Origin: Stappia indica
GTDB taxonomy: Bacteria > Pseudomonadota > Alphaproteobacteria > Rhizobiales > Stappiaceae
Direction: 5' to 3'
Assembly: GCF_009789575.1 (NCBI RefSeq)
Contig: NZ_CP046908.1
Location: forward strand, 806,001-870,000
DNA length: 64,000 bases
Positions within the stretch are counted from its first letter, which is position 1. Each line of letters opens with the position of its first letter. Positions 13,348 to 62,368 of the stretch are shown here, piece by piece. The notes under the pieces were generated by a model. It was not told the DNA's origin, did not search any database, and worked only from the letters and a program-made list of their open reading frames with translations. A program made the translations under genes and the position numbers.

Positions 13348-14712
13348 TCAGTTGAACGCGACGACGTCGCCCTTGGAGGTGATGGTCACCATCCGCCCCC
13401 CGGCGATGATCGGCGTCACATAGATGTCTTCCGATGTCTGCGACACCCCGAGCACGCGGCCCGAGGCGGCATCCACCCGCACCAGGCGGCCATCGCTGGA
13501 GGCGGCGACGAGCACGCCGTTGGCGAGCACCGGGCCGGCCCAGTTGATGCGGCTCTTCTTCTTGCCCTCGACATTCGGCAGCACGGTGCGCCACAGCGGG
13601 TTGCCGGTGGAGCGCTCCAGCGCGACCATACGGTCCTCGATATCGATCAGGAACACGCTGCCGCCGGAGACGATCGGCGTGTGCAGCGAGCCGACATCCT
13701 GCTCCCACACGCGCTCGCCGTTGCGCAGCCGCGAGGCGACGAGACGGCCGGACACGCCGGAGGAGAAGACCATGTCGCCGTTGACGACGGGGCTGGCCGA
13801 AACATCGGTGAAGCCGGACACCGCACGGGTGCGGTAAGAGCGGGTCACGCCCTCGACCCATTTCGGCTCGCCGCTCTTCATGTCGAGCGCCATCACCTCG
13901 CCGGAGGTGAAGGGAACGATGACGGTGCCGCCGGAAATCGCCGGATTGGCGAAGGCGAGCAAGCCGCTGCTTTCGGCGATGCCGGCATAGGTCCAGCGCT
14001 CGGCGCCGTCGTCCTGCGCGGCCGCATGGACCTCGCCGGTCTGGGTGACGGCGACGACCGTGCCGCCGGCCGCGGCCGGAGCCTGACGGGCCGGTGCGTT
14101 GATGCTCTTGGTCCACAGCACCGCGCCGGAGGACGCATCCAGCGCCACGAGCTGGCTGTAGCCGGTGGCGACGAAGACGCGGCCGCCATCGACGGCGACG
14201 CCGCCGCCGGAGGCGACACCGCTCTCGCCCTCGGGACGCAGCGAACGGCGCCACAGGCGGCCGCCATTGGTCGACAGCGCGGTCACGTCGCCGTTCTGGT
14301 TGTAGACGAAGATGCGGCCATTGTCGGAAACGGGACGCGCGGCGATGCGCACGGTGCCGGAGAACACGCCGCCGCCGCTGCCGCCGACAGAGGCGCGCCA
14401 GGCGCGGCCGCCGGAGATCGAGGCCGAGACATTGCCGGAATTGTTGCCGGCATCACCCCCGCCCTGCCGCCATACGACGGAGCTGGCCGAGCCGATGCTG
14501 GCCGCCTTGTTGCCGCCCTCGGCGACCGGGACGGTATTGTCGAACAGCGCTTCGCGCTCGCCCGGCAGCACCGTCTCCTTGGAGAAGGGATTGAGATCGG
14601 AAAGGGACGAGCAGCCGACCAGCGCCAGCGCCGCCAGCGACAGGGTCGCGGCGCGAAGGAGGGGGCGGGATCCGCTGCGGTCGAGCGCGTGAATGTTCGG
14701 GCGCATGGTCAT
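13348..14712 (-). CDS. bamB: Outer-membrane assembly lipoprotein BamB-like (PQQ-type beta-propeller)
   Basis: A 454-residue lipoprotein with lipobox LALVGC (Cys 34). The mature part is a repeat of eight-blade PQQ-like strands with recurrent GxxWxxS or GxLW patterns ([44 protein letters not shown]). It is expected to be the BamA-partner scaffold at the inner face of the outer membrane. Its ATG overlaps the upstream TPR gene stop by one base (TGATG), so the two are translationally coupled; a second ATG two codons later is also possible. It is longer than E. coli BamB, with a Ser/Gly-rich insertion after the lipobox. Confidence 0.88.
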
Positions 14713-15383
14713 CAGGAGCCCTCCCCGGCCGGCTTGCCTTCGGCGGCATCGATCAGGTCCAGCAGGGTGCGGGCGCGCGAGGCGACGTCGCCGGGGGCTC
14801 CCTCCTGGTCGAGAATGCCGCCGAGCCAGCGGCGCGCGGCGGCAGGGTCGTTCTGCTTCCAGGCGGACAGGGCCAGCGCTTCGCGGGCGAGGAAGCGCCA
14901 GGCATTGTCGTCGCCCGACAGCGCCTCGAGACGCTGCGAGGCGCCCTGGTAATCCTCAAGGTCGAGCGACAGGTAGCCCGCGCGCAGGCGGGCAATGTCG
15001 CGAAGCAGCGGCGCAGCGCTGTTGTCTGCGGCAACCGCGTCGAAGGCCGCGATGGCACCGGCCTTGTCGTCCGCCTGCGCCTTCAGCGCGGCGGCGCGCA
15101 TGCCGGCCAGCTGCGGATAGCCGCCGGGGCCGTCCGCCAGGTCCGCCAGCCGCGCCTCGGCCTCTGCAAAATTGCCCTGATCGGCAAGCCGGGCGGCGCT
15201 CACGTAGATATCGCCGGCCTCGCGGCCCACGCTCTCCTGCCAGTAGAGCCAGCCGCGCCAGCCGGCCGTGCCGGCAACGATGAGGACGGCAACGGCGATC
15301 AGGTAGGTCCCGAAACGGTTCCACAGGCGCTTGTAGCGCTCGTGCCTGATCTCCTCGTCGACCTCGCGAAAAATGTCGGACAT
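14712..15383 (-). CDS. YfgM-like tetratricopeptide membrane protein
   Basis: A 223-residue protein with a short cytoplasmic N-terminus (FREVDEEIRHERYKRLWNRF), one transmembrane helix at about 26-48 (LIAVAVLIVAGTAGWRGWLYW) and a periplasmic TPR-like helical region (GNFAEAEARLADLADG; DKAGAIAAFDAVAADN). This is the architecture of YfgM, an ancillary SecYEG/PpiD partner. Gene order yfgM-bamB-der matches the E. coli neighbourhood and supports the call. Coupled to bamB by a one-base stop/start overlap. Confidence 0.8.
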   Translation of the reverse strand: MSDIFREVDEEIRHERYKRLWNRFGTYLIAVAVLIVAGTAGWRGWLYWQESVGREAGDIYVSAARLADQGNFAEAEARLADLADGPGGYPQLAGMRAAALKAQADDKAGAIAAFDAVAADNSAAPLLRDIARLRAGYLSLDLEDYQGASQRLEALSGDDNAWRFLAREALALSAWKQNDPAAARRWLGGILDQEGAPGDVASRARTLLDLIDAAEGKPAGEGS

Positions 15384-15578
15384 ACGCTGCGAATTCCCGA
15401 TACTTGAGAAATGCGCCGCCCGGTCTGCCGGTGCGGCGCGGCGCCACCATATCCATTTGACCTTTCACTGGCAAACGGCAGTGTCCGCTCCGAAAAGCGG
15501 CAGGCACCGAAATGAACGCGCGCCTCTCCCCTTGCGCGTCTTCGTGGCGCAAGTGAGGCAGGCGCGCGCCGCGTCTCG

Positions 15579-16157
15579 TTACACGACCGGCACGCCGATC
15601 AGCAGTTCGTGCAGGTAGAAGACGAAGGCGAGATAGAGGCCGAGGCCGACGACGAGCGAGACGATGTCGCCCGCGGCCGACGGCGCGCCGGTCGCGACCC
15701 CGTCCAGCGTCGCGGGGCGGCGCTTCAGCGAGATCCGGTCGGCGACGGCCCAGGCGAGGAAGGCCGCGAACAGCAGCACCGAGGCCAGATCGCCATTGGC
15801 CAGCAGATGCGCCAGGGCCCAGATCTTCACCGCCAGCACCATCGGGTGCTTCACCGCCTTCTTGATCCGACCGGCCGGCGCGCCGGAGGCGACCAGCAGC
15901 ACGAAGACCGGCAGCATCAGGAGCAGGGTGACATGGCGCATCCACACCGGCGGATCGTAAAGGATCGGCGGGCCGTCCGCGCGGGCGGCGCCATAGCCGT
16001 AGACCAGCAGCGCGAAGCCGGCGAGCGAGGCGACCGTGAAAAGAATGCGGTAGCCGCCGGCGCCGAGCCGCGCCCTCAGGCTGTCGCGCAGGCCGGTCAT
16101 CATCGGGACGGCATGGATGCCGATGAAAACGATGAGTCCCAGGACGAGCAGGGTCAT
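15579..16157 (-). CDS. NnrU family membrane protein
   Basis: A 192-residue membrane protein with about six hydrophobic helices. It starts MTLLVLGLIVFIGIHAVPM and contains HPMVLAVKIWALAHLLANGD, the conserved NnrU signature with its histidines. NnrU is associated with nitric oxide metabolism in denitrifiers and is homologous to isoprenoid/methyltransferase-type membrane proteins; its biochemical role is unproven. No nir or nor genes are nearby, so a link with denitrification is not supported here. Confidence 0.88.
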   Translation of the reverse strand: MTLLVLGLIVFIGIHAVPMMTGLRDSLRARLGAGGYRILFTVASLAGFALLVYGYGAARADGPPILYDPPVWMRHVTLLLMLPVFVLLVASGAPAGRIKKAVKHPMVLAVKIWALAHLLANGDLASVLLFAAFLAWAVADRISLKRRPATLDGVATGAPSAAGDIVSLVVGLGLYLAFVFYLHELLIGVPVV

Positions 16158-16414
16158 GGCGATGGTGTCTCCCTCTGTGAGCGGTCAGGGTTGACCTGCC
16201 GCAGCGCCAGGGTCAAGCCGCGCGAGGTGCAGGCCCGGCAGACCCGCGACGAGCCTGCGGCAGTGTTGCAGGAAAGCGACGGGCCGCCCCCCGCAATTCC
16301 GCCACCGCGGTCAATCCGCAAAAAACCCGATTATCGGCCTATTGCAGCCGCATCCCACTTGGAGAATCACTGCAAGTGGGGCCATAGTTCGCGCGAGTTT
16401 GGAGGCGGGATGAG

Positions 16415-16690
16415 ATGACGATTCGCGACAGGCGGAGCAGTCCGCGCCACCGAACGCTGAAAAGCGGGCGGATCGTCGTGGATGGCGGGGCAAAGATCCA
16501 CGAATGCCGTGTCCGCAACCTGTCCGATGACGGCGCCCTGTTGAAACTGCCGAGCACCGCCGAAGTCCCCGACCGTTTCGAGCTGCGCATCTTCAACGAG
16601 GACATGGCCGTCACCGCCATGGTGCGCTGGCGCACCGCCACGGAACTCGGCATCCAGTTCGAGACCGAGGACGGCGAGACGGCAGGCTGA
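16415..16690 (+). CDS. PilZ domain protein (c-di-GMP binding)
   Basis: A 91-residue stand-alone PilZ domain. The c-di-GMP-binding elements are the Arg-rich N-terminus (RDRRSSPRHRTLKSGRI) and the strand-turn motif RNLSDDGALLKLP, matching the (D/N)xSxxG consensus. It has no partner domain, so it probably works as a diffusible adaptor. The binding residues look intact. No diguanylate cyclase or phosphodiesterase is in the window. Confidence 0.88.
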   Translation: MTIRDRRSSPRHRTLKSGRIVVDGGAKIHECRVRNLSDDGALLKLPSTAEVPDRFELRIFNEDMAVTAMVRWRTATELGIQFETEDGETAG

Positions 16691-16743
16691 GCCCCCGTCC
16701 CGCAAAGTTCGTCCCGCAACGTTCGTCCCGAAACGTTTCCCCT

Positions 16744-17616
16744 TCAGGATCCGACCGAGGCCGGTTTCGGCGCCCGGCGCACGGCCACCTGCGCGGCCCA
16801 CACGCCGGCAAGCACCAGCACCACGCCGGCGATCTGCGCCGGGGCGAGCGCCTGGCCGAGCAGACCCCAGCCGAGCAGCACGGCGGTGGTGGGGCTGAGG
16901 AAGCCGAGCGAGGCGACAGCCGAGGGCTCCAGCCGCGAGATGCCGCGGAACCACAGCACATAGGTCAGCGCGCTGGACAGGCTCATGTAGAGGAAGCCCG
17001 CCATGTTGCGCGCGCTCGGCGCGGGCGGCAGCGGCTCCAGCACGACTGCCATCGCCACCAAGAGCACCCCGCCGGCGAGCAGCTGCCAGGCGGCAAAGAC
17101 CAGCGGCGAGACCGGCGGCTGCCAGCGGCGGGTCAGCACCGTGCCGAAGGCCATGGAGACCGCCCCGCCAAGTGCCGCGGCAATGCCGATCGCATCGAGC
17201 GCGGCCTCGTTGCGCAGCACCAGCAGGGCCACCCCGCACAGCCCGGCAAGGGCGGCGAGAACCGCGAGCGGGCGAATGACGCTGCCGAGCAGCATGGCCG
17301 CGACGAAGATGACGATGAGCGGCTGCACCGCGCCGACCGTGGCGGCGATGCCGCCGGGCAGCCGGTAGGCGGAGATGAACAGCAGCACCATGAAGATGGC
17401 GAAGTTCAACGCGCCCAGCACGAAGGACCGCCAGATCCACTGCCCGCGCGGCAGCTGGCGCACGATCAGCAGTAGCAGCAGGCCGGCGGGCAGGACGCGG
17501 GCGGCCGCGACGAACACCGGATGGCCGGGAGGTAGCAGCTCGGTCGTGACGATATAGGTGCTGCCCCAGACCACCGGCGCGAGCGCGGTGGCCAGAAGAT
17601 CGGAAGCGCGGAACAT
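16744..17616 (-). CDS. EamA-type (DMT) transporter
   Basis: A 290-residue protein of about ten transmembrane helices with two EamA repeats. The first starts LLATALAPVVWGSTYIVTTEL and has the typical GxxxPLxxxxxA region (VGAVQPLIVIFVAAML). The second contains SALTYVLWFRGISRLEPS and LGFLSPTTAVLLGW. ATG 17616 is used; the earlier in-frame start (17718) adds a Pro/Arg-rich 34-residue stretch with no membrane character. Members export amino acids or metabolites; the substrate is unknown. Confidence 0.87.
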   Translation of the reverse strand: MFRASDLLATALAPVVWGSTYIVTTELLPPGHPVFVAAARVLPAGLLLLLIVRQLPRGQWIWRSFVLGALNFAIFMVLLFISAYRLPGGIAATVGAVQPLIVIFVAAMLLGSVIRPLAVLAALAGLCGVALLVLRNEAALDAIGIAAALGGAVSMAFGTVLTRRWQPPVSPLVFAAWQLLAGGVLLVAMAVVLEPLPPAPSARNMAGFLYMSLSSALTYVLWFRGISRLEPSAVASLGFLSPTTAVLLGWGLLGQALAPAQIAGVVLVLAGVWAAQVAVRRAPKPASVGS

Positions 17617-17726
17617 GACGGGCCTCGTTTGAGGAAGGGCGGGAACGGGCCGGGCGACAGGCGCGCCGCCCGGCGATCTTGGCGGGAGCGAGACGGGCAG
17701 ACAAGCCCCCTCGCCCATCTGCAGGC

Positions 17727-18359
17727 TCAGGCGTGCGACAGCACCTCGCGGAGCGGACGGCGCGGCTTTTGCGGCCAGTTGCCGGGCGCGGCACGGCCGA
17801 CGGCCAGCAGCATCACCGGCACTTCGCCCTCAGTGAGATCGAACTCGGCTGCGACCTTGGCCGGATCGAAGCCGACCATCGGCCCGCTGGCGAGCCCCCG
17901 GGCCGCGGCGGCAACCATCATGAAGGAGGCGGCGAGCGTCGCCGAACGCACCGCCTCGTCGCGCGCGGCAACCGGGTCCGCGCCATAGGCCGCGGCGACC
18001 GCATCGACCCAGCCCCCGACCATGTCGGCGGGCATGAACCCGGCCTCGACGGAAGGACGCAGCCGCGCGCCGAGAGTTGCCGCCTCGGGATGGCTGCCGA
18101 CGACGATGAAGGTGACGGCGGCCTCCGACACCTTGGCCTGACCATAAGCCGCCTCGCGCAGCCGCGCCTTGGCCTCCGGCGACGTCACGGCGACGAAGCG
18201 CCAGTTCTGCAGGTTGTAGGCGCTGGGAGCCCGGGTCGCGAGATGGACGAGTTCCTCGACCTCGGCGGCGGCAAGACGGGCTGCAGGGTCGAACAGGTTG
18301 GCCGAGACGCGGCCTTCCAGAAGGGTGGCGATATCGGTAGCGACGTCAGGGGCGGTCAT
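17727..18359 (-). CDS. Nitroreductase family flavoprotein
   Basis: A 210-residue FMN-dependent oxidoreductase. It has the N-terminal family motif ATRAPSAYNLQNWRFVAV for FMN binding and the later GPMVGFDPAKVAAEF segment. It is likely a cytoplasmic homodimer reducing nitro, quinone or flavin substrates with NAD(P)H. ATG 18359 begins MTAPDVATDIATLLEGR. The gene faces a lysR 5' fragment across 126 bp, the classic divergent regulator/target layout. The full lysR copy now lies 1.7 kb away (see repeats at 18486 and 20089), so its regulation may have changed. Confidence 0.87.
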   Translation of the reverse strand: MTAPDVATDIATLLEGRVSANLFDPAARLAAAEVEELVHLATRAPSAYNLQNWRFVAVTSPEAKARLREAAYGQAKVSEAAVTFIVVGSHPEAATLGARLRPSVEAGFMPADMVGGWVDAVAAAYGADPVAARDEAVRSATLAASFMMVAAAARGLASGPMVGFDPAKVAAEFDLTEGEVPVMLLAVGRAAPGNWPQKPRRPLREVLSHA

Positions 18360-18485
18360 GATGCAGATCTCTCCGTGGAACTGTGCCGGGAGCCCGTGCT
18401 CCCTCTGCCTCAAGAGATATTCCCGTTCCATCCGCGCGATAATCCGGCTATTCATCCGATCACTCGCAACTGAAAGTGAACAGTC

Positions 18486-18573
18486 ATGGAACAGCTCACC
18501 GCGCTTCGCGTCTTTCGCCGGGTGGTCGACGAGGGCTCCTTCGCCGGCGCCGCGCGTAGCCTCTCGCTGTCGC
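18486..18573 (+). repeat. 88-bp direct repeat, left copy
   Basis: Identical over 88 bp to 20089-20176. The identity begins exactly at the ATG of lysR and ends one base into codon 30. Bases on both outer sides differ. Together the copies bracket a 1,515-bp insert of lower GC. Confidence 0.97.
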
Positions 18574-18614
18574 AAAGTAAGAGGTCTTGCATATTTGCCG
18601 CCGCTCGGCGGTGA
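18486..18614 (+). pseudogene. Truncated lysR 5' fragment
   Basis: Starts at the native lysR ATG opposite the nitroreductase gene. The first 88 bp are identical to those of the intact lysR at 20089. After codon 29 the sequence departs (CAAAGTAAGAGG...) and hits TGA at 18612-18614, giving 42 residues with half a helix-turn-helix. It keeps the ancestral promoter but cannot make a regulator. It marks the left junction of the islet that carries the methyltransferase-like gene. Confidence 0.9.
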
Positions 18615-18728
18615 CACGTCCACAGCCGGGGCAAATAGTCTTGATCGCCAAATCAGTTTCAGCGAAGGTCCCCCAACCGCTAGCGCTTTTCGCCGCCACA
18701 GAATTCTCAGTGACGAGGCCTTGATATT
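18615..18728. other. Left flank of the islet
   Basis: 114 bp between the truncated lysR frame and the methyltransferase-like gene. GC falls across it. A minus-strand frame reads IKTICPGCGRVTAERRQICK, a CxxC pattern, but it has no ribosome site and runs into the lysR repeat, so I do not call a gene. GAGG lies 10 nt before the downstream ATG. Confidence 0.4.
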
Positions 18729-20003
18729 ATGCAATGGAATCTTGACGCATTTTGCCTGGATGAAGCTCGAAGCAACCGGCAAATAAGTGCCAATGATTTG
18801 ATTGAAAGAAGCCGCCTACCTAAAGACAAGCAATTCAAGAATCCCGTATCACGCAGGCGGCACGATTACTTCGCCTATTGCAGCGTACCTTTTATATGCC
18901 GAGGCGCAAACAAAAATAAATTCAAAAATGTACTCGAGGTCGGCTGCGGGCAGGGCGCAAAGATCTACGGCCTAAGCAGGCTCTCCGAAAATTACACCGG
19001 CATCGACATCGACAAAAAATCGCTCGATGAAGCGAACTCTCTCGTTCAAGATCTTGGCTTGAAGAATGTTCGCCTTATTCAGACAAACGGCGATGACCTT
19101 GAAAAAATATGGGACAGCCACGGCCCGTTCGACCTTGTGATATTCTATGCTGTACTCGAGCATATGACGTTCGCGGAAAGAATGTCGGCTTTGAATTCAG
19201 CTAAATCGTTTTTGGAGCGCGGCGCAGCAGTTTATATCGGAGAGGGACCCAACCGGCTGAATCCGATCGACCTGCACACTTCCGAAATACCTCATTTTGA
19301 CGCGCTCCCCGATGACATCGCTGCGGCGTACGCAACCGCTTTCCCGAGCCGGCAGTCTTTTAAGGACCTCGTCCTGAAGACGGAAGGTTTCGACCTCATG
19401 CGCACAAGGGCAGGACGGGGCTTTTCCTATCATGAATTCAATCTCATCTTCGAAGCCACGAGATTGCAGAATGCCGTCAAACGTGACGGCTGGGCCATCG
19501 AGAAACTGAACCAGTATCCGCTGTTTGCATTCGAGGGATACAATCTGGAATCTTTTCCCCTTGTCAGGAATTGGAGCGGAGCCTCCAGCCCTCCTGTCCA
19601 TCCGGCTTTCGCCAGATCGTGGATCGACCTGATACTGGTCGAAGGACAACAGCAACCGGAAGCAAGTCAATCCGTCGTTTTCTCGTCGCATGCAGGGGCC
19701 CAGGCCATAGATTATTTCGGGAACAAAACACTGGACCTGGATGGAAAGCAGAATAACGCCGAGTATGTGACGGACAGCAAAACTACAAAGTTCATTTTGA
19801 ACGTGAAGAGATCTGCTGGATCAATGATCATCCAGAGCGGATCTGTCGAGCGAACAATCGACTTTTCGGAACTGCCTCAGTGGAGCCCCCTCCCTCATGC
19901 ATATCGTTGCTTTGAGATCAGCGGCATTGGGAAGACGGTCCGTTTCACTCCAATCGGCGATGATTCCAGGGTCTCATTAGGACCGATTATCAAGGCTTAC
20001 TGA
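18729..20003 (+). CDS. SAM-dependent methyltransferase-like protein on a low-GC islet
   Basis: A 424-residue protein. Residues about 60-220 are a class I methyltransferase fold: motif I VLEVGCGQGAKIYGLSRLS, acidic motif II YTGIDIDKKSL, and a motif IV-like FDLVIFYAVLEHMTF. The C-terminal 150 residues are beta-rich (SMIIQSGSVERTIDF; KTVRFTPIGDDSRVSLGP) and match nothing I know. Codon choice (AAA, AAT, ATA, TCA frequent) and lower GC than both neighbours indicate recent transfer. It sits alone between two copies of the lysR 5' end. Substrate is unknown; surface-glycan or cyclopropane-type methyl transfer are guesses I do not favour. Confidence 0.75.
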   Translation: MQWNLDAFCLDEARSNRQISANDLIERSRLPKDKQFKNPVSRRRHDYFAYCSVPFICRGANKNKFKNVLEVGCGQGAKIYGLSRLSENYTGIDIDKKSLDEANSLVQDLGLKNVRLIQTNGDDLEKIWDSHGPFDLVIFYAVLEHMTFAERMSALNSAKSFLERGAAVYIGEGPNRLNPIDLHTSEIPHFDALPDDIAAAYATAFPSRQSFKDLVLKTEGFDLMRTRAGRGFSYHEFNLIFEATRLQNAVKRDGWAIEKLNQYPLFAFEGYNLESFPLVRNWSGASSPPVHPAFARSWIDLILVEGQQQPEASQSVVFSSHAGAQAIDYFGNKTLDLDGKQNNAEYVTDSKTTKFILNVKRSAGSMIIQSGSVERTIDFSELPQWSPLPHAYRCFEISGIGKTVRFTPIGDDSRVSLGPIIKAY

Positions 20004-20088
20004 CCGCCCTCAGGACCGACGCATAATAGGACGCATAATAGTCTGTGCGTTGCCAAGTGACGTTCACAAGGAATGAGGCAACGCCGGA
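20004..20088. promoter_or_regulatory. Replacement leader of lysR with tandem and inverted repeats
   Basis: Contains a perfect tandem repeat, GACGCATAATAG at 20018-20029 and 20030-20041, each with a CATAAT -10-like core. It also contains an inverted repeat GCGTTGCC (20047-20054) / GGCAACGC (20077-20084) just before the lysR ATG. This sequence is unrelated to the native lysR leader at 18360-18485, so the intact lysR is now read from different upstream signals. AAGGAATGAGG supplies a possible ribosome site. Confidence 0.55.
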
Positions 20089-20176
20089 ATGGAACAGCTC
20101 ACCGCGCTTCGCGTCTTTCGCCGGGTGGTCGACGAGGGCTCCTTCGCCGGCGCCGCGCGTAGCCTCTCGCTGTCGC
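20089..20176 (+). repeat. 88-bp direct repeat, right copy
   Basis: Right copy of the 88-bp repeat (left copy 18486-18573). Here it forms the natural beginning of the complete lysR gene. Confidence 0.97.
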
Positions 20177-20982
20177 CGGCGGCGATCAGCAAGAATATCG
20201 GCGAGCTGGAAGCCCATCTCGGCGTGCGCCTGCTCAACCGGACGACGCGGCGGATGAGCCTGACCGAGCCGGGCCGGCTCTACTACGAGCAGGTGGCGCG
20301 CATCCTCGATGACCTGACCGAGGCGGACGGGTCAATGCAGCCGCTGCGCCACCGGCCGAGCGGCCTGCTGCGGGTCGCGGCACCGATCTCGCTCACGGTC
20401 ACCCGGTTGTCGCGCACGATCACCGCCTTCATGCTGGCCTATCCCGAAGTGGAGATCGACCTGCACCTGGACGACCGGCAGGTGGACCTGGTCAAGGACG
20501 GCTTCGATATCGCCATCCGCGGCACGTCGAAGCTGGAGGATTCCAGTCTCGTCGCCCGCCGGCTGACGAGCATGCGCCATGTGATCTGCGGCGCGCCCGC
20601 CTATCTCGACAAGGCCGGCCGGCCGCGCCATCCGGAGGAACTCGCATCGCACCGGATCGTCCAGTTTTCGCTGTCCGGCAATGCCACGGAATGGGCGCTG
20701 GAGCGCGAGGGCGAACGCGCGAGCGTGCCGGTCGCCAGCCGCTACCGGGTGTCGACCAGCCTTGCCGTGCGCGAGGCGCTGCTGGCCGGCTACGGCCTGT
20801 CGCTGATCCCCGCACCTTACGTGCGCGAGGACCTTGCCGCCGGGCGGCTGGAGACGGTGCTGGAGGGCTGGGCACCGGAGGACACGCAGATCTATGCGGT
20901 CTATCCCTCGCGCCGCTACCTGCTGCCGAAGGTGCGCGCGCTGATCGACTTCCTGGCCGAGGACCTGCAGGACGAGGCGTGA
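20089..20982 (+). CDS. LysR family transcriptional regulator (intact copy)
   Basis: A 297-residue regulator: N-terminal winged helix-turn-helix (FRRVVDEGSFAGAARSLSLSP, then AAISKNIGELEAHLGVRLL), linker helix and a substrate-binding domain from about residue 90 (GLLRVAAPISL; DLVKDGFDIAIRGT). It resembles the large LysR subgroup often divergent from oxidoreductase genes. The ancestral target was probably the nitroreductase gene at 17727. Its first 88 bp also occur at 18486, so the open frame was restored by the islet junction and the gene looks functional. Confidence 0.92.
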   Translation: MEQLTALRVFRRVVDEGSFAGAARSLSLSPAAISKNIGELEAHLGVRLLNRTTRRMSLTEPGRLYYEQVARILDDLTEADGSMQPLRHRPSGLLRVAAPISLTVTRLSRTITAFMLAYPEVEIDLHLDDRQVDLVKDGFDIAIRGTSKLEDSSLVARRLTSMRHVICGAPAYLDKAGRPRHPEELASHRIVQFSLSGNATEWALEREGERASVPVASRYRVSTSLAVREALLAGYGLSLIPAPYVREDLAAGRLETVLEGWAPEDTQIYAVYPSRRYLLPKVRALIDFLAEDLQDEA

Positions 20983-21007
20983 GCGCCGGGCTTCAGCACA
21001 GGGTCTT

Positions 21008-22234
21008 TCAACGCGAAGCCTTCAGCGCGGCGAACCAGAACCCCAGGCAGAGGAACAGCGCGCCGACGAAGATCGCAGCCAGCACCGCACCGTAGCCGCC
21101 CGAGGCCTGCCACAGCAGCGCGGCGGCGAGCGGGGCGACCGCCTGCATCAGGTTCATCGGCCCGGTGAGCGAGCCGCTGACCGCGCCATAGGCCTCGCGG
21201 CTGACCATCTCCGGCACGGCAAGCCCGCGCACGATGGTGATCATGCCGTTGGCCGCGCCGTAGACGGCGGCAATGGCGCCGATCACCAGCACCGAGGGCG
21301 GGGCGAAGGCGAGCGCTGCGGCGGCGAGCGGAAAGACGATGACGACGGCCGAGCCGATGACCCGCACGGGCGCGGCCGGCGCCAGCATGCGGATGGCGAT
21401 GCGCCCGGCGACCTGGGCCGGGCCGATCACCGCCATCACCGCGACGACGCCGGCCGCATCCAGCCCCCGCTCCAGCAGCAGCGGATAGAGGTGATAGGTC
21501 AGCGAGGAAAACGCCGCCGCATAGGAGACCCAGGCCAGCATCAGCCCCCAATAGGCCGGCCGGCGCATGGCCGCGGCCACCGCGCGGCGGCCCGACAGCG
21601 GCGCGCTGCCGTCCTCTCGCACCGGCACGGGCGCATCGCGCGCGGGATCGATCGCCGCGAAATACAGCGAAGCGCACAGAAGACCATTGACGCCGGCCAT
21701 CACCACCAGCGCGCCGCGCCAGCCCTGCGTCTCGATGAGGATCTGGATGATCGGAATGAAGACGGTGCTGGCGAAGCCGCCCCACAGGGTGAGCGCGGTG
21801 ATGCCACTGCGCGCCCGCAAGGCTCCGACCCGGCGAGCGATGACGGCGAAGGCCGGCTCGTAGAGCGTCGCGGCCTGCAGCATGCCGAGCCCGGCCAGCA
21901 CCACATAGAAGGCGGCGACATCCTCCACTTGCGACCAGGCGAGAAGCAGCAGGCCGGCCAGCACGGAGGCGCCGGCCATCAGGTAGCGCCCGCGCCCCCG
22001 GTCGATCGCCGCCCCCACCGGATAGGCGGCGATGCTGGCCAGCACCACACCGAGGGTCGCCGCGCCGTAGAGCACCGGCTTGGACCAGCCGAGGTCGCCG
22101 CGCATCGCCTCGGCGATCAGCGGAAAGCCGTAGAACAGCGTACCCCAGGAACAGATCTGGGCGATGCCGAGCGCGGTGATGAACCAGCCGGTCCCGGCCG
22201 GCGGCGCATCCACGCCAAGGGGGCGCTGCGACAT
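21008..22234 (-). CDS. MFS transporter linked to the arsenic cassette
   Basis: A 408-residue major facilitator with about twelve helices. It has the loop 2-3 basic motif region (GAAIDRGRGRYLMAGASVLAG) and duplicated halves. ATG 22234 is chosen; the longer TTG start at 22354 adds 40 Pro/Arg-rich residues that overlap the arsR gene. It lies 64 nt downstream of an arsR-type gene on the same strand, so an arsenical or related efflux role is likely by context. MFS exporters of arsenicals are known, but substrate cannot be read from sequence. Confidence 0.8.
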   Translation of the reverse strand: MSQRPLGVDAPPAGTGWFITALGIAQICSWGTLFYGFPLIAEAMRGDLGWSKPVLYGAATLGVVLASIAAYPVGAAIDRGRGRYLMAGASVLAGLLLLAWSQVEDVAAFYVVLAGLGMLQAATLYEPAFAVIARRVGALRARSGITALTLWGGFASTVFIPIIQILIETQGWRGALVVMAGVNGLLCASLYFAAIDPARDAPVPVREDGSAPLSGRRAVAAAMRRPAYWGLMLAWVSYAAAFSSLTYHLYPLLLERGLDAAGVVAVMAVIGPAQVAGRIAIRMLAPAAPVRVIGSAVVIVFPLAAAALAFAPPSVLVIGAIAAVYGAANGMITIVRGLAVPEMVSREAYGAVSGSLTGPMNLMQAVAPLAAALLWQASGGYGAVLAAIFVGALFLCLGFWFAALKASR

Positions 22235-22298
22235 GAACGTGATCCTCGTGAAAGCGCGCCGGACGGTGGCCGGACGATGGCAGGGCCGGGTGGCGGGG

Positions 22299-22661
22299 TC
22301 AGGTGGCGGGGTCGGGAACGGATGCGCCCCGGCAGGAGGGAGGCGCATCGGCAAGATCGGAAGGGCGGGTGCCGTCGGCGCAGCACTCCTCGGCGAGATA
22401 GCCGAGCAGCGCCCGCATGGCCGGATAATGGGCGCGGCAGATCAGCGTCGTCGCCTGGCGCTCGCGCGTGACGAGCCCGGCATCGACAAGCTGCTTGCAG
22501 TGATGGGACAGCGTCGAGGCCGGGATCTCCAGTTGCTCCTGGATGCGGCCGACGGGAAGGCCCTCGGCGCCCGCACGCACCAGGATGCGGTAGATCCGCA
22601 GCCTGAGCGGATTGCCCAGCGCCAGCAACTGGGCTGCCGTCTGCTCGAGCCGCGCGGTCAT
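22299..22661 (-). CDS. arsR: ArsR family regulator (second copy)
   Basis: A 120-residue winged-helix repressor. MTARLEQTAAQLLALGNPLRLRIYRIL is followed by the recognition region PASTLSHHCKQLVDAGLV and an RAHYPAM wing. Near the C-terminus is a vicinal Cys pair in LAEECCADG, a plausible As(III)/Sb(III) site, also present in the other ArsR here. ATG 22661 lies immediately after a perfect 19-bp inverted repeat that contains its AAGGG ribosome site, suggesting operator and RNA-hairpin control. Upstream is acr3, downstream the MFS gene. Confidence 0.85.
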   Translation of the reverse strand: MTARLEQTAAQLLALGNPLRLRIYRILVRAGAEGLPVGRIQEQLEIPASTLSHHCKQLVDAGLVTRERQATTLICRAHYPAMRALLGYLAEECCADGTRPSDLADAPPSCRGASVPDPAT

Positions 22662-22662
22662 G

Positions 22663-22706
22663 TGCCGTAACCCTTGTTCGAAAAAACTCGAACAAGGGTT
22701 ACGGCA
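22663..22706. promoter_or_regulatory. Perfect 19-bp inverted repeat over the arsR leader
   Basis: TGCCGTAACCCTTGTTCGA (22663-22681) and its exact complement (22688-22706) flank a 6-nt loop of A5C. It ends 1 nt before the arsR ATG and includes the likely Shine-Dalgarno AAGGG. It may act as a DNA operator, an RNA structure hiding the ribosome site, or the boundary from acr3. No U-run follows on the minus strand, so it is not a classical terminator. Confidence 0.85.
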
Positions 22707-22757
22707 GGCGGGCAGGCCCGGCAAGTGCTTTCGTCGAAAGGTGTCGGGACGCAGGCG

Positions 22758-23849
22758 TCAGTCTGTGCTGCCCGCGACGCGCGATCCGCGCTCGTACCAG
22801 CCCCGCGACCGGTTGACGATCCAGACCACCGACAGCATCACCGGCACCTCGACGAGGACGCCGACAACGGTGGCCAGCGCGGCACCGGAATTCAGCCCGA
22901 ACAGGGCGATGGCGGCGGCAACGGCGAGTTCGAAGAAGTTCGAAGCGCCGATCAGGGCGGAGGGACCGGCGACGCAGTGCCGCTCGCCGGACATCCGGTT
23001 GAGCAGATAGGCGAGACCGGAATTGAAGTAGACCTGGATCAGGATCGGCACGGCGATCAGCGCGATGATCAGCGGCTGGGCGATGATGTGCTCGCCCTGG
23101 AAGCCGAAGAGCAGCACCAGGGTGGCGAGCAGCGACACCAGCGAGACCGGCTGCAACACCCCGACCAGCCGGTCGAGCGCCAGCTGACCGCCCTTTGCCA
23201 GCAGCCGCCGGCGCAGCACCTGCGCGACGATCACCGGCAGCACGATGTAGAGCAGCACCGAGATCAGCAGCGTGTCCCAGGGCACCGTGATGGCGGACAG
23301 GCCGAGCAGCAGGCCGACGATGGGCGCGAAGGCGACGATCATGATCGCATCGTTGAGCGCCACCTGCGACAAGGTGAAGTTGGGCTCGCCGCGCGTCAGG
23401 TTGGACCAGACGAAGACCATCGCCGTGCACGGCGCCGCCGCCAGGATGATCAGGCCGGCGATATAGGAATCGATCTGGCTTTCCGGCAGCCAGGGCCGGA
23501 ACAGGTAGCCGATGAACAGCCAGCCGAGCAGCGCCATCGAGAAGGGCTTGACCGCCCAGTTGATGAACAGCGTCACGCCGATGCCGCGCCAGAACGTGCC
23601 GACCTGCGCAAGGGCGGCGAAGTCGACCCGCAGCAGCATCGGCACGATCATCAGCCAGATCAGCACGGCAACCGGCAGGTTGACCTGCGCCACCTCGGCG
23701 GAGGCGATGACCCTGAACAGCCCCGGAAGCATGTGGCCGAGGCCGATCCCCGCGATGATGCACAGCGCCACCCAGAGAGTCAGGTACTTCTCGAAAAACC
23801 CGATGGCCGGGGCGGCGCCGTCGCCGTCCCCGATAGCATGATCCGTCAT
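22758..23849 (-). CDS. acr3: Arsenite efflux transporter Acr3
   Basis: A 363-residue, ten-helix permease of the ACR3/bile-acid transporter superfamily exporting As(III). The conserved Cys motif is in LAAAPCTAMVFVWSNLTRG; the second-half helix-breaking motif is PSALIGASNFFELAVAAAIALF. N-terminus MTDHAIGDGDGAAPAIGFFEKYLTLW. It follows arsC by 18 nt on the same strand, giving arsR-arsC-acr3. Confidence 0.93.
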   Translation of the reverse strand: MTDHAIGDGDGAAPAIGFFEKYLTLWVALCIIAGIGLGHMLPGLFRVIASAEVAQVNLPVAVLIWLMIVPMLLRVDFAALAQVGTFWRGIGVTLFINWAVKPFSMALLGWLFIGYLFRPWLPESQIDSYIAGLIILAAAPCTAMVFVWSNLTRGEPNFTLSQVALNDAIMIVAFAPIVGLLLGLSAITVPWDTLLISVLLYIVLPVIVAQVLRRRLLAKGGQLALDRLVGVLQPVSLVSLLATLVLLFGFQGEHIIAQPLIIALIAVPILIQVYFNSGLAYLLNRMSGERHCVAGPSALIGASNFFELAVAAAIALFGLNSGAALATVVGVLVEVPVMLSVVWIVNRSRGWYERGSRVAGSTD

Positions 23850-23867
23850 GATGATATCCTGGATTGG

Positions 23868-24377
23868 TCAGCCGGCCCGGGGCAGGTCGCGGCCGATCTC
23901 GCCGAGGCGCGACTGCAGCGTCATGCGGTCGAGCGAGGCGAGCGGAAGGGCGGTGAAGATGGAGATGCGGTTGGCCAGCATCCGGTAGGTGTCGGCGAAG
24001 GCCAGCGCCACCTCGCTCGCCGTCCCCTCGACGGCGGCCGGGTCCGGCACGCCCCAATGGGCGGTCATCGGCTGGCCGGGCCACACGGGGCAGGCCTCGC
24101 CGGCAGCGTTGTCGCAGACGGTGAAGACGAAATCCATCACCGGCGCGCCGGGCTGCGCGAACTCTTCCCAGTTCTTGGAACGGGCAAAACCGGTGTCGTG
24201 GTTGAGCTTGGCGAGCAGGGCAAGCGCCTGCGGATGCACCTCGCCCTTGGGCTGCGAGCCGGCGGAAAAGGCCTTGAACCGCCCCTGTCCGTCACGGTTG
24301 AGGATCGCCTCGGCCAGGATCGAACGGGCGGAATTGCCGGTGCACAGGAACAGCACATTATAGACGCGATCGGTCAT
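23868..24377 (-). CDS. arsC: Arsenate reductase, thioredoxin-coupled type
   Basis: A 169-residue low-molecular-weight phosphatase-fold ArsC. The active P-loop is CTGNSARS with Cys 12. A second Cys pair, VCDNAAGEACPVWPG, matches the redox Cys pair of the Staphylococcus-type enzyme, so electrons probably come from thioredoxin rather than glutaredoxin. Converts As(V) to As(III) for export by Acr3. Located between arsR and acr3. Confidence 0.93.
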   Translation of the reverse strand: MTDRVYNVLFLCTGNSARSILAEAILNRDGQGRFKAFSAGSQPKGEVHPQALALLAKLNHDTGFARSKNWEEFAQPGAPVMDFVFTVCDNAAGEACPVWPGQPMTAHWGVPDPAAVEGTASEVALAFADTYRMLANRISIFTALPLASLDRMTLQSRLGEIGRDLPRAG

Positions 24378-24407
24378 TTACCCCTCCATTTCCCGCCTGG
24401 CGGGAGA

Positions 24408-24740
24408 TCAGCAATTGCAGGTCACCGCCTCGATCACCGGGCGGCAGAGCTCCGGTGCACCGTTGCAGCAGTCTTCCATCAGGAAGGCGAGAAGATCGCG
24501 GAAGCCGGTCATGTCGGCGGTGTAGCGCACGCTGCGCCCGTCCCGCTCGGCCTGGACCAGGCCGGCCTGGGCGAGCGTCTTGAGATGCGCCGACACGGTG
24601 TTCTGGACCGCGCCGAGGCGCGTCGAGATCTCGCCGGCGGCAACGCCCTGCGGTCCGGCCTTCACCAGCAGGCGGAAGATGTCCAGCCGGGTGTCCTGAC
24701 CGAGCGCCGCCAGCGCCATGAGCGCGGATGACTTATCCAT
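24408..24740 (-). CDS. arsR: ArsR family arsenic-responsive repressor (first gene of ars operon)
   Basis: A 110-residue repressor. MDKSSALMALAALGQDTRLDIFRLL leads to the helix-turn-helix VQNTVSAHLKTLAQAGLV and the wing RDGRSVRYTAD. Cys residues cluster at the C-terminus (EDCCNGAPELC and TCNC), giving candidates for a three-coordinate As(III) site. A strong AGAAGGAG ribosome site is 6-7 nt before ATG 24740. The promoter region at 24741-24770 has ATCCAT/ATGGAT half-sites. Heads the arsR-arsC-acr3 operon. Confidence 0.9.
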   Translation of the reverse strand: MDKSSALMALAALGQDTRLDIFRLLVKAGPQGVAAGEISTRLGAVQNTVSAHLKTLAQAGLVQAERDGRSVRYTADMTGFRDLLAFLMEDCCNGAPELCRPVIEAVTCNC

Positions 24741-24860
24741 TTATCTCTCCTTCTGGATATATGGATACATCGGGACGCCGCCGCGCGCAACCGCCTTGAC
24801 GCGCGCCTCCTCATTCGCCAATCTTGAAACGTTATTACATAACAAATCAGGATCCCCACC

Positions 24861-25205
24861 ATGCGCCTCTTCGTCAATCCGTTCGCACCGCGCGACCGGC
24901 GTCCCTCCCCCGCCGAGACGGCCGGAAGCCACACGGAGGGCGACCGGCAGGCCCTGCGCGAGCGGGTCAAGCAGGGCGTGCGCAAGGTGCTGGCGCCGGG
25001 CGAGGACGCGGTGATCTCGGTCAGCGAGCTGGCCTGCGGCGAGGACGGCTGCCCGGATGTGGAGACGGTGATCGGCATCCACGAGGCGGGCGCGCCCGCA
25101 CGCCGGCTGCGCCTGCACATGCCGCTTGCCGCGGTGGGCCTTGCGGATATCGCGGCAGCCGCCGAGGATGCCCGCCGCACCGCAGACAAGGACCGTTCCG
25201 CATGA
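24861..25205 (+). CDS. Conserved small protein with CGEDGC motif
   Basis: A 114-residue protein whose core is SELACGEDGCPDVETVIGI, with two Cys four residues apart, between a basic helix (DRQALRERVKQGVRKVL) and a C-terminal Ala-rich helix. No signal peptide. I have seen this core in small alphaproteobacterial proteins of no proven function. Its TGA overlaps the next gene's ATG (ATGA, 25202-25205), so it is translationally coupled to a methyltransferase. Metal binding through the Cys pair is possible. Divergent from the ars operon. Confidence 0.65.
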   Translation: MRLFVNPFAPRDRRPSPAETAGSHTEGDRQALRERVKQGVRKVLAPGEDAVISVSELACGEDGCPDVETVIGIHEAGAPARRLRLHMPLAAVGLADIAAAAEDARRTADKDRSA

Positions 25206-26040: not shown

Positions 26041-26736
26041 ATGGCACGGCATGTCGGCATCATCGCCTGTTCGGCGGAAGGGGCGGCGGAGTGCTACCGC
26101 ATCCTTTGCGCGGAAGCCGAAGCCCTGCTCGGGGCGCATGGCAATCCGCCGGTCAGCCTGCACATGCAGCCGCTCATCGACTACGTCCGCCATCTGGAGG
26201 CGGGGCGCGCCGATCTTGTCGGCGAACTGATGCTGGACAGCGCCAGGCGGCTGCAGGCTTCCGGCGCGCAGCTGCTGATCTGCCCGGACAACACCATCCA
26301 CCAGGGCCTGCCGCATGTGGCGGACCGCATGCCCCTGCCTTTTCTCCATATCGCCGAGGTGGTGGCGCAGGAGGCCGCGCGCCGAGGCTTTCGCCGGCTG
26401 GCTCTGACCGGCACGGTGTGGCTGACCGAAAGCGATGTCTACCCGCAGGCGCTCGGCAGGCAGGGCATCGAGACCGTGCTGCCGACGAAGGCGGAGCGGA
26501 CCGAGATCGGCCGCATCATCATGGACGAGCTGGTGCGCGGAAGGCTGGAAGTCTCGGCGGAGGCGTATTTCCAGCAGGTCATCGGCCGCATGGCGCGCGA
26601 GGACGGGTGCGATGCCGTGGTGCTCGGCTGCACGGAGATCCCGCTCCTGATGAACGACGGCAACTCGCCGCTGCCGACGCTCGATTCGACGCGGCTGCTG
26701 GCGCTCGCCGCCCTGCGGCACGCGGTAGAGGCGTAA
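26041..26736 (+). CDS. Aspartate/glutamate racemase family protein
   Basis: A 231-residue protein of the Asp/Glu/hydantoin racemase superfamily. The first catalytic loop reads LLICPDNTIHQGL, where Cys is followed by Pro-Asp-Asn rather than the common CNT; the second is VVLGCTEIPLLM with the second Cys. N-terminal GIIACSAEGAAECY is the usual glycine-rich entry. Both Cys are present, so a two-base racemase is plausible. Start ATG 26041 has GGAGCG upstream. Confidence 0.85.
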   Translation: MARHVGIIACSAEGAAECYRILCAEAEALLGAHGNPPVSLHMQPLIDYVRHLEAGRADLVGELMLDSARRLQASGAQLLICPDNTIHQGLPHVADRMPLPFLHIAEVVAQEAARRGFRRLALTGTVWLTESDVYPQALGRQGIETVLPTKAERTEIGRIIMDELVRGRLEVSAEAYFQQVIGRMAREDGCDAVVLGCTEIPLLMNDGNSPLPTLDSTRLLALAALRHAVEA

Positions 26737-26743
26737 AGCGGTT

Positions 26744-27412
26744 TCAGCCGTGCTCGATGATCAGCACGGCGCGGGTGTCCGGCTCCAAGGCCTCGAAGGT
26801 GTGAGGGGTGTCCGCCGGATAGGCGGCATAGTCGCCGGCGGCAAGCTCGACCTCCCGTCCTTCCGGCCCCAGACGCGCGCGGCCGCGCATCACGACCACA
26901 TGCTCGCGCGTGCCCGGCCCATGACCGGGCGAGAGATGTGCCGCGGAAAGATGCGGCGAGCCGGGCTCGGCCTCGATCACGTAGAGATCGCGCCTTGTGC
27001 CCGGTCCCGCCGCCGACAAAAGCCGGGCGAGATAATCGGCATGGTCGGAACGGGTCGACGGCCCCTCGCCGGCACGGATCACCTCGATCTCGCCGCGCGG
27101 GGCCTCCAGCAGCGCGGCGACGCTGACGCCCAGCGCATTGGCAAGCAGCCACAGGGTCTCGATGGCGGGATTGCCGCTCCCCGATTCCAGCTGCGACAGG
27201 GTCGACTTGGCAAGGCCGGCCGCGCGTGCAAGCTCGCTTGCCGACAGGCCGGCGCGCAGGCGTTCGCGGCGCACCGCAGCGCCGACGAGCGCGCCGATGC
27301 CGGTTGGTCCCTTGATGCCCTCGCTGGCGTCCACCTGCCCGCCTTTCGCACATGCCGGCCAGGTGCCGGCGCTCATGCGATCACTATAAAAGCGGTCGTC
27401 CCGGAGAGCCAT
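26744..27412 (-). CDS. XRE-family regulator with C-terminal cupin
   Basis: A 222-residue protein: helix-turn-helix at about residues 40-95 (LSASELARAAGLAKSTLSQLE) and a cupin domain from about 140 (HLSPGHGPGTREHVVVMRG; GDYAAYPADTPHTFEA). Such regulators typically control small-molecule catabolic or transport genes, with the cupin as ligand sensor. ATG 27376 is an alternative start removing 12 residues. It converges with the racemase gene with a 7-nt gap. Confidence 0.85.
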   Translation of the reverse strand: MALRDDRFYSDRMSAGTWPACAKGGQVDASEGIKGPTGIGALVGAAVRRERLRAGLSASELARAAGLAKSTLSQLESGSGNPAIETLWLLANALGVSVAALLEAPRGEIEVIRAGEGPSTRSDHADYLARLLSAAGPGTRRDLYVIEAEPGSPHLSAAHLSPGHGPGTREHVVVMRGRARLGPEGREVELAAGDYAAYPADTPHTFEALEPDTRAVLIIEHG

Positions 27413-62098: not shown

Positions 62099-62368
62099 CT
62101 AGGTCGTGAACTCATAATTCTGGCGAGAAACGGTATGCCTGAACCTGATCGGGCACAAGGAGCAAGCCTGCAGGAAACCGTCCGGTTTTCAAGGTCTTGC
62201 GACGCTGTTGCCGGCAGGTTCGCCCAGACCCGAAGGGCGTCGGCCTGACTTCGATCTGCGGCGTCGGATCGCTCGGCCGGGGGACCTGCCCCGGCCATCA
62301 CGCTCCTCCTAGCATATCATTGCCGGGCCAGACGCCGTTTCCCGCACAATTATGAGTCCACGACCTAG
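62099..62368. mobile_element. 270-bp MITE-like element with terminal inverted repeats
   Basis: The ends CTAGGTCGTGAACTCATAAT (from 62099) and, inverted, CTAGGTCGTGGACTCATAAT (to 62368) match at all but one of 21 bases. Similarity (AAACGG) continues inward for about 15 bp. Both ends carry CTAG, which could be a 4-bp target duplication. Inside is no transposase; a 23-kDa-type gene is impossible at this size, though a short frame with AGGAGG upstream exists (62099-62298). It has the form of a non-autonomous derivative of an IS5-like element with CTAG target; family is inferred. Confidence 0.75.

Follow-up and report, generated by a model that had tools for sequence, protein, structure and literature searches.

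In the genome of Stappia indica, a segment of foreign DNA carrying a single methyltransferase-like gene lies between two identical 88-bp copies of the 5' end of a lysR gene, and the right-hand copy restores the complete reading frame of the regulator. The islet looks like the clean, probably recent, single footprint of a gene capture. We infer, with a probability of about one half, that end joining captured a linear foreign fragment at a staggered break whose overhangs were filled in. The genome, of 5,116,759 bp (5.12 Mb), is assembled as one contig and is 99.97% complete. The analysed stretch, referred to as the window, comprises 64,000 nucleotides (genome positions 806001–870000), and coordinates are those of the window unless stated otherwise.

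Structure of the locus

The direct repeat occupies positions 18486–18573 and 20089–20176, both on the plus strand, at a spacing of 1603 bp and with no mismatch between the copies. It starts at the ATG of lysR and is exactly 88 bp long, the adjoining bases differing at both sides. In 200 first-order Markov controls of the same 5 kb, the longest exact repeats reached at most 17 bp (mean 12.6 bp), and exact repeats in the window reach only 19 bp once the left copy is masked. The perfect repeat of the lysR 5' end claimed in an earlier, sequence-only reading of this DNA was thus confirmed at all 88 positions and with sharp ends.

The native neighbour on the left is a nitroreductase-family gene (17727–18359, minus strand; 210 aa; PF00881, E 2.4e-24), which is syntenic in relatives. 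It is followed by the 126-bp divergent promoter region of the nitroreductase gene and lysR (18360–18485), which matches the leaders of four genomes of the same genus (G005, G008, G003 and G012) at 107–120 of 126 bases and is therefore native. The left 88-bp copy continues into the islet and ends at a stop codon, forming an ORF of 42 codons in all, and is a dead fragment. The right copy is the start of a complete LysR-family regulator of 297 aa (20089–20982, plus strand; PF03466, E 1.1e-47; PF00126, E 2.2e-21), whose reading frame is intact. The 126 bases before its ATG match the native leaders at 66–74 positions in a forced global alignment, which marks this leader as foreign. Its islet portion, the right non-coding stretch (20004–20088, plus strand; GC 0.55), contains a 12-bp unit in two copies (20018–20041) and a GAGG motif (20075–20078) located 10 nt upstream of the ATG. 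The earlier description of the left copy as a dead fragment with the native promoter, and of the right copy as the full regulator with a foreign leader, agrees with these results. The methyltransferase gene now follows the native lysR promoter region and the 42-codon leader ORF; judging from the sequence, both it and lysR may be expressed from their present leaders.

The islet and its methyltransferase gene

The insert (18574–20088) is 1,515 bp long and has a GC content of 51%, while 500-bp windows that do not touch it, in the region 14000–25000, range from about 64% to 74%. The GC content at third codon positions is 0.57 in the methyltransferase gene and 0.84–0.89 in two neighbouring genes. 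By its composition, the islet DNA is foreign. Its only gene, located to the right of a left non-coding stretch (18574–18728, plus strand; GC 0.54), is an ORF of 424 aa (18729–20003, plus strand) whose residues 65–170 match class I SAM-dependent methyltransferases (PF13847, E 2.2e-15; 57 bits against a family cut-off of 27), and the PDB matches of the protein are likewise methyltransferases. The size, the low GC content and the single methyltransferase-like gene are as the earlier reading had described them. At 17700–21100, the left non-coding stretch included, Rfam gave no hit with an E-value of up to 1, no tRNA gene was present in the window, and the folds of the two islet ends were no better than those of shuffled sequences (z −0.68 and 0.36).

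A partial PADLOC hit to mad2 (residues 55–174, E 2.5e-18) probably reflects the shared methyltransferase fold and not a role in defence.

The protein was searched in several genome sets. Among 151 genomes, including its own, 66 gave a match at E up to 0.001, the matches outside its own genome being short and partial, with a best E-value of 9.3e-10. Among 385 genomes of the class, its own and four others matched at E up to 1e-8, and among 398 genomes of the phylum, only its own did at 1e-10. Contig scans, which detect close relatives only, returned 18 pattern stretches in genome contigs, none of which was confirmed, and one unconfirmed stretch in viral contigs. Three plasmid records and no phage record matched the protein, and the islet DNA itself had no match among plasmids. 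The two best partial matches by E-value were a Nostoc plasmid protein annotated as a glycosyltransferase (29% identity over 57% of the query) and a protein of genome G249 (36% over residues 36–241). In these genome, contig, plasmid and phage searches, no donor and no close relative of the islet was found. The gene of the Nostoc protein adjoins those of an ABC transporter and a sulfotransferase, and next to the G249 gene, an ORF on the opposite strand reads, in our own assessment, as a glycosyltransferase. With two partial relatives located near glycosyltransferases, a glycan methyltransferase is a plausible candidate role.

The site in related genomes and the age of the insertion

The LysR proteins of G005, G008, G003 and G012 are 90–92% identical to that of S. 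indica. In all four genomes, the start codons of the nitroreductase gene and lysR are 126–127 bp apart, with nothing between them and without the duplication. The empty site had been predicted with a 126-bp gap and with the two genes facing each other; the gap was as predicted, while the genes turned out to be divergent, that is, back to back. In a broader comparison of 47 loci, the nitroreductase gene was found next to lysR in 22 (9 of 19 in one set and 13 of 28 in another, with three of the 22 being genomes counted twice). All 22 were divergent and free of an insert, with gaps of about 102–181 bp as extrapolated from BLAST coordinates; the other 25 loci had no nitroreductase match and are uninformative on the empty site. 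The earlier proposal of an insertion that duplicates and restores its target gene is supported by the empty site in the four same-genus genomes and by the intact reading frame.

Each of the two copies differs from G005, G008, G003 and G012 at the same 7, 9, 5 and 6 of the 88 positions, respectively, while the copies do not differ from each other. As the left fragment should be free of the constraint acting on a working gene, and yet shows no difference, the duplication probably took place recently, after the lineage had separated from that of G005, provided that differences were not removed by gene conversion. With the same proviso, copies that are identical and yet 5–9 positions away from the relatives argue against an ancient duplication, for which divergent repeats would be expected.

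Mobile-element features

The sequence-only reading had noted an islet without a recombinase, and the Pfam searches bear this out: the long ORF is the methyltransferase, and six further ORFs of 60–164 aa in or across the islet gave no match at E up to 0.1. There is no terminal inverted repeat, as only 6 of 40 bases match between the islet ends. Hence, neither the transposase nor the terminal inverted repeats of an insertion sequence or transposon were found. Similarly, of the features of a site-specific integrative element, an integrase in the islet and related elements at the site in the 22 loci were searched for and not found, and a search for attP-like copies in phage records, viral contigs and plasmids gave at most weak plasmid matches. 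The islet has no second copy in this genome, and a search of its DNA in 60 other genomes gave no match in 59 and one match of 29 bp. The 88-bp sequence had no match in phage records, two 25–26-base patterns taken from it were absent from viral contigs, and its three matches in plasmids were weak (77–89% identity over 41–73% of the query).

Search for further cases

Exact direct repeats of at least 22 bp with a spacing of up to 15 kb were sought in 1,024,000 bases of the S. indica genome and in 240,000 bases of G005. The scan covered 20% of the genome, mostly as 20-kb stretches, so that pairs across stretch ends and rare cases would escape it. In these 1.02 Mb, no other clearly low-GC insert bracketed by exact repeats of at least 30 bp was found, save for a 16-bp gap inside a tandem array in stretch L127 (GC 0.56). 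Apart from that gap and from adjoining or overlapping copies without an insert, the other pairs of at least 30 bp enclosed DNA with a GC content of 0.64 or higher, and visual inspection suggests that they represent paralogous genes, GC-rich repeats or tandem arrays. A 24-bp repeat pair in stretch L118 encloses DNA with a GC content of 0.59.

A 224-kb alignment with G005 was also inspected; the gap set left out a 17-kb gap (genome positions 865817–883026) and some small gaps. Of the 16 gaps examined, eleven carry at least 900 bp in S. indica, the islet being one of them. The other ten segments have direct repeats of 9–11 bp at their borders; the G005 site is shorter than 40 bp in five of them, and the remaining five are replaced segments. 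At this sampling, the islet is a single event. No account of a class of inserts that duplicate gene starts was found in the parts of the literature consulted, which does not establish that there is none.

Other features of the genome were also noted. A dispersed element of about 270 bp (62099–62368) has at least 24 near full-length copies in the genome with 87–100% identity, counted among the 34 matches listed, for which 40 of 64 candidates were scored. One end of the element matches the other in inverted orientation, a copy is also present in the aligned G005 stretch, and the element resembles a MITE or REP-type family. Stretches L133 (11937–15208), L130 (3086–4374) and L137 (6265–6923) contain GC-rich repeats that are exact over up to 199 bp. 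A 997-bp segment outside the window (genome positions 781214–782212), in which a transposase-like ORF was recognised by eye, is absent from G005.

Proposed mechanism

In the proposed mechanism, illegitimate (non-homologous) integration would have placed a linear foreign DNA of 1.5 kb with one methyltransferase gene in the 5' end of lysR. The most economical path in a single step would be a staggered break with nicks 88 bp apart on the two strands; ligation of the foreign fragment between the broken ends and filling-in of the two overhangs would then have left the 88 bp on each side. A sharp-ended target duplication without inverted repeats is as expected from a filled-in staggered break and a joined fragment. 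The insert would have been tolerated because the right copy rebuilds the whole lysR frame behind the foreign leader. The host has the end-joining enzymes: two Ku domains are encoded at C1:1896835–1897326 and 1900518–1901063, and between them lies a LigD of 813 aa with polymerase, phosphoesterase and ligase domains. Ku and LigD would be the natural enzymes for the joining, a role proposed from their presence in the genome. In stretch L112 (10664–15339), a ku gene and ligD stand in a row, with the second ku convergent to them.

Two points speak against capture at a staggered break. A stagger of 88 nt is, in our judgement, long for a spontaneous break, and the position of the right junction exactly at the ATG is a coincidence that break and joining do not predict. 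Selection for a working lysR, with its frame whole and GAGG 10 nt upstream, may have chosen the exact junction.

Among the alternatives, integrative elements that carry a copy of the end of their target gene are well known, and the perfect direct repeats and the restored gene would fit a remnant or non-autonomous site-specific element, in which the 88 bp would be attL and attR, attP would have carried the lysR 5' end, and the integrase would have been lost or supplied in trans. We consider this unlikely, since no recombinase was found in the islet, the phage, viral and plasmid searches with the 88 bp gave at most the weak plasmid matches, and no element lies between the two genes in any of the 22 loci where both were found. 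Moreover, an attP from elsewhere should carry mismatches within the 88 bp, because sister species already differ at 5–9 positions. Homology-assisted uptake requires a donor with the lysR of this very lineage, identical at 88 of 88 positions, and none was found. Such uptake could have been a Campbell-type single crossover, the incoming circle bearing 88 bp of lysR together with the foreign gene. Alternatively, the donor DNA could already have had the islet upstream of lysR and have been joined by homology-facilitated illegitimate recombination, with homology at the right end and an illegitimate junction at the left. According to the parts of the sources consulted, the latter process was reported in three naturally competent species (PMC2884548), and duplications can arise by transformation (PMC3784515). 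A ComEC-type competence domain is encoded in the genome, a weak indication, as the same search was positive in 10 of 14 control genomes. The divergence between S. indica and G005 is raised in lysR (0.078) and above all in its 3' part (0.110 at 20604–21103), compared with 0.045 over the left 9 kb; this signal is not specific to lysR, as the right flank also reaches 0.096 at 26604 and 0.112 at 27104. Taken together, the two versions of homology-assisted uptake are likewise improbable.

Template switching during replication or break-induced repair, in which the fork would leave lysR at base 88, copy foreign DNA and return at the ATG, should produce the same end structure as fill-in; any microhomology at the junctions would be readable only against a donor sequence, for which the searches gave no match, and we rate this route as rather remote. 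It is more doubtful still that the islet represents an unrecognised class of recombinase-less single-gene inserts at start codons, moved by an enzyme in trans and bearing a leader, here with the ribosome-binding-like GAGG, by which translation of the interrupted gene would be maintained. An assembly duplication or misjoin as the source of the second copy is hardly credible in a single-contig genome of this completeness, and a misjoin poorly explains a foreign gene between exact copies, with the neighbours otherwise in the order seen in relatives.

Comparison with known systems and significance

Capture by break and end joining looks like an event of an already known type, the illegitimate integration of a short foreign segment, and not like a new kind of mobile element: no recombinase was found in the islet, terminal inverted repeats are missing, four relatives have an empty site, and the host encodes Ku and LigD. 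As in illegitimate integration and homology-facilitated illegitimate recombination, foreign DNA would have been joined with homology at no more than one end, and no mobile-element genes accompany it. Like target-restoring integrative elements and prophages, which are flanked by direct repeats of a gene end and rebuild the gene at one border, the islet has direct repeats of a gene end and a lysR rebuilt at one border; unlike them, it has no other element genes and no integrase was found in it, and no such element occurs in the 22 nitroreductase–lysR loci. It also shares with transposon insertions a target directly duplicated at both ends. Usual transposon target duplications are far shorter than the 88 bp observed here, and the islet differs further in having no terminal inverted repeats; no transposase was found in it. 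In the consulted part of a survey of variable segments of 20–500 bp in three species, 10–18% were flanked by repeats, and 66–94% of the repeats were shorter than 30 bp (PMC2884548); the islet differs from the segments described there in its exact 88-bp target duplication on both sides. Illegitimate integration has also been described, with low efficiency, in E. coli conjugation, according to the part of that report consulted (PMC3240628).

The way in which single foreign genes enter chromosomes without a mobile element usually has to be deduced from junctions that have already decayed. At the Stappia locus, the two junctions are intact, as are the duplicated target and the empty site, and the event can therefore be followed at single-base resolution. 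The role of non-homologous end joining (NHEJ) in bacterial gene acquisition is, as we judge it, more assumed than shown; if end joining produced the islet, bacterial NHEJ would have left at this locus a natural footprint of its part in acquiring a gene.
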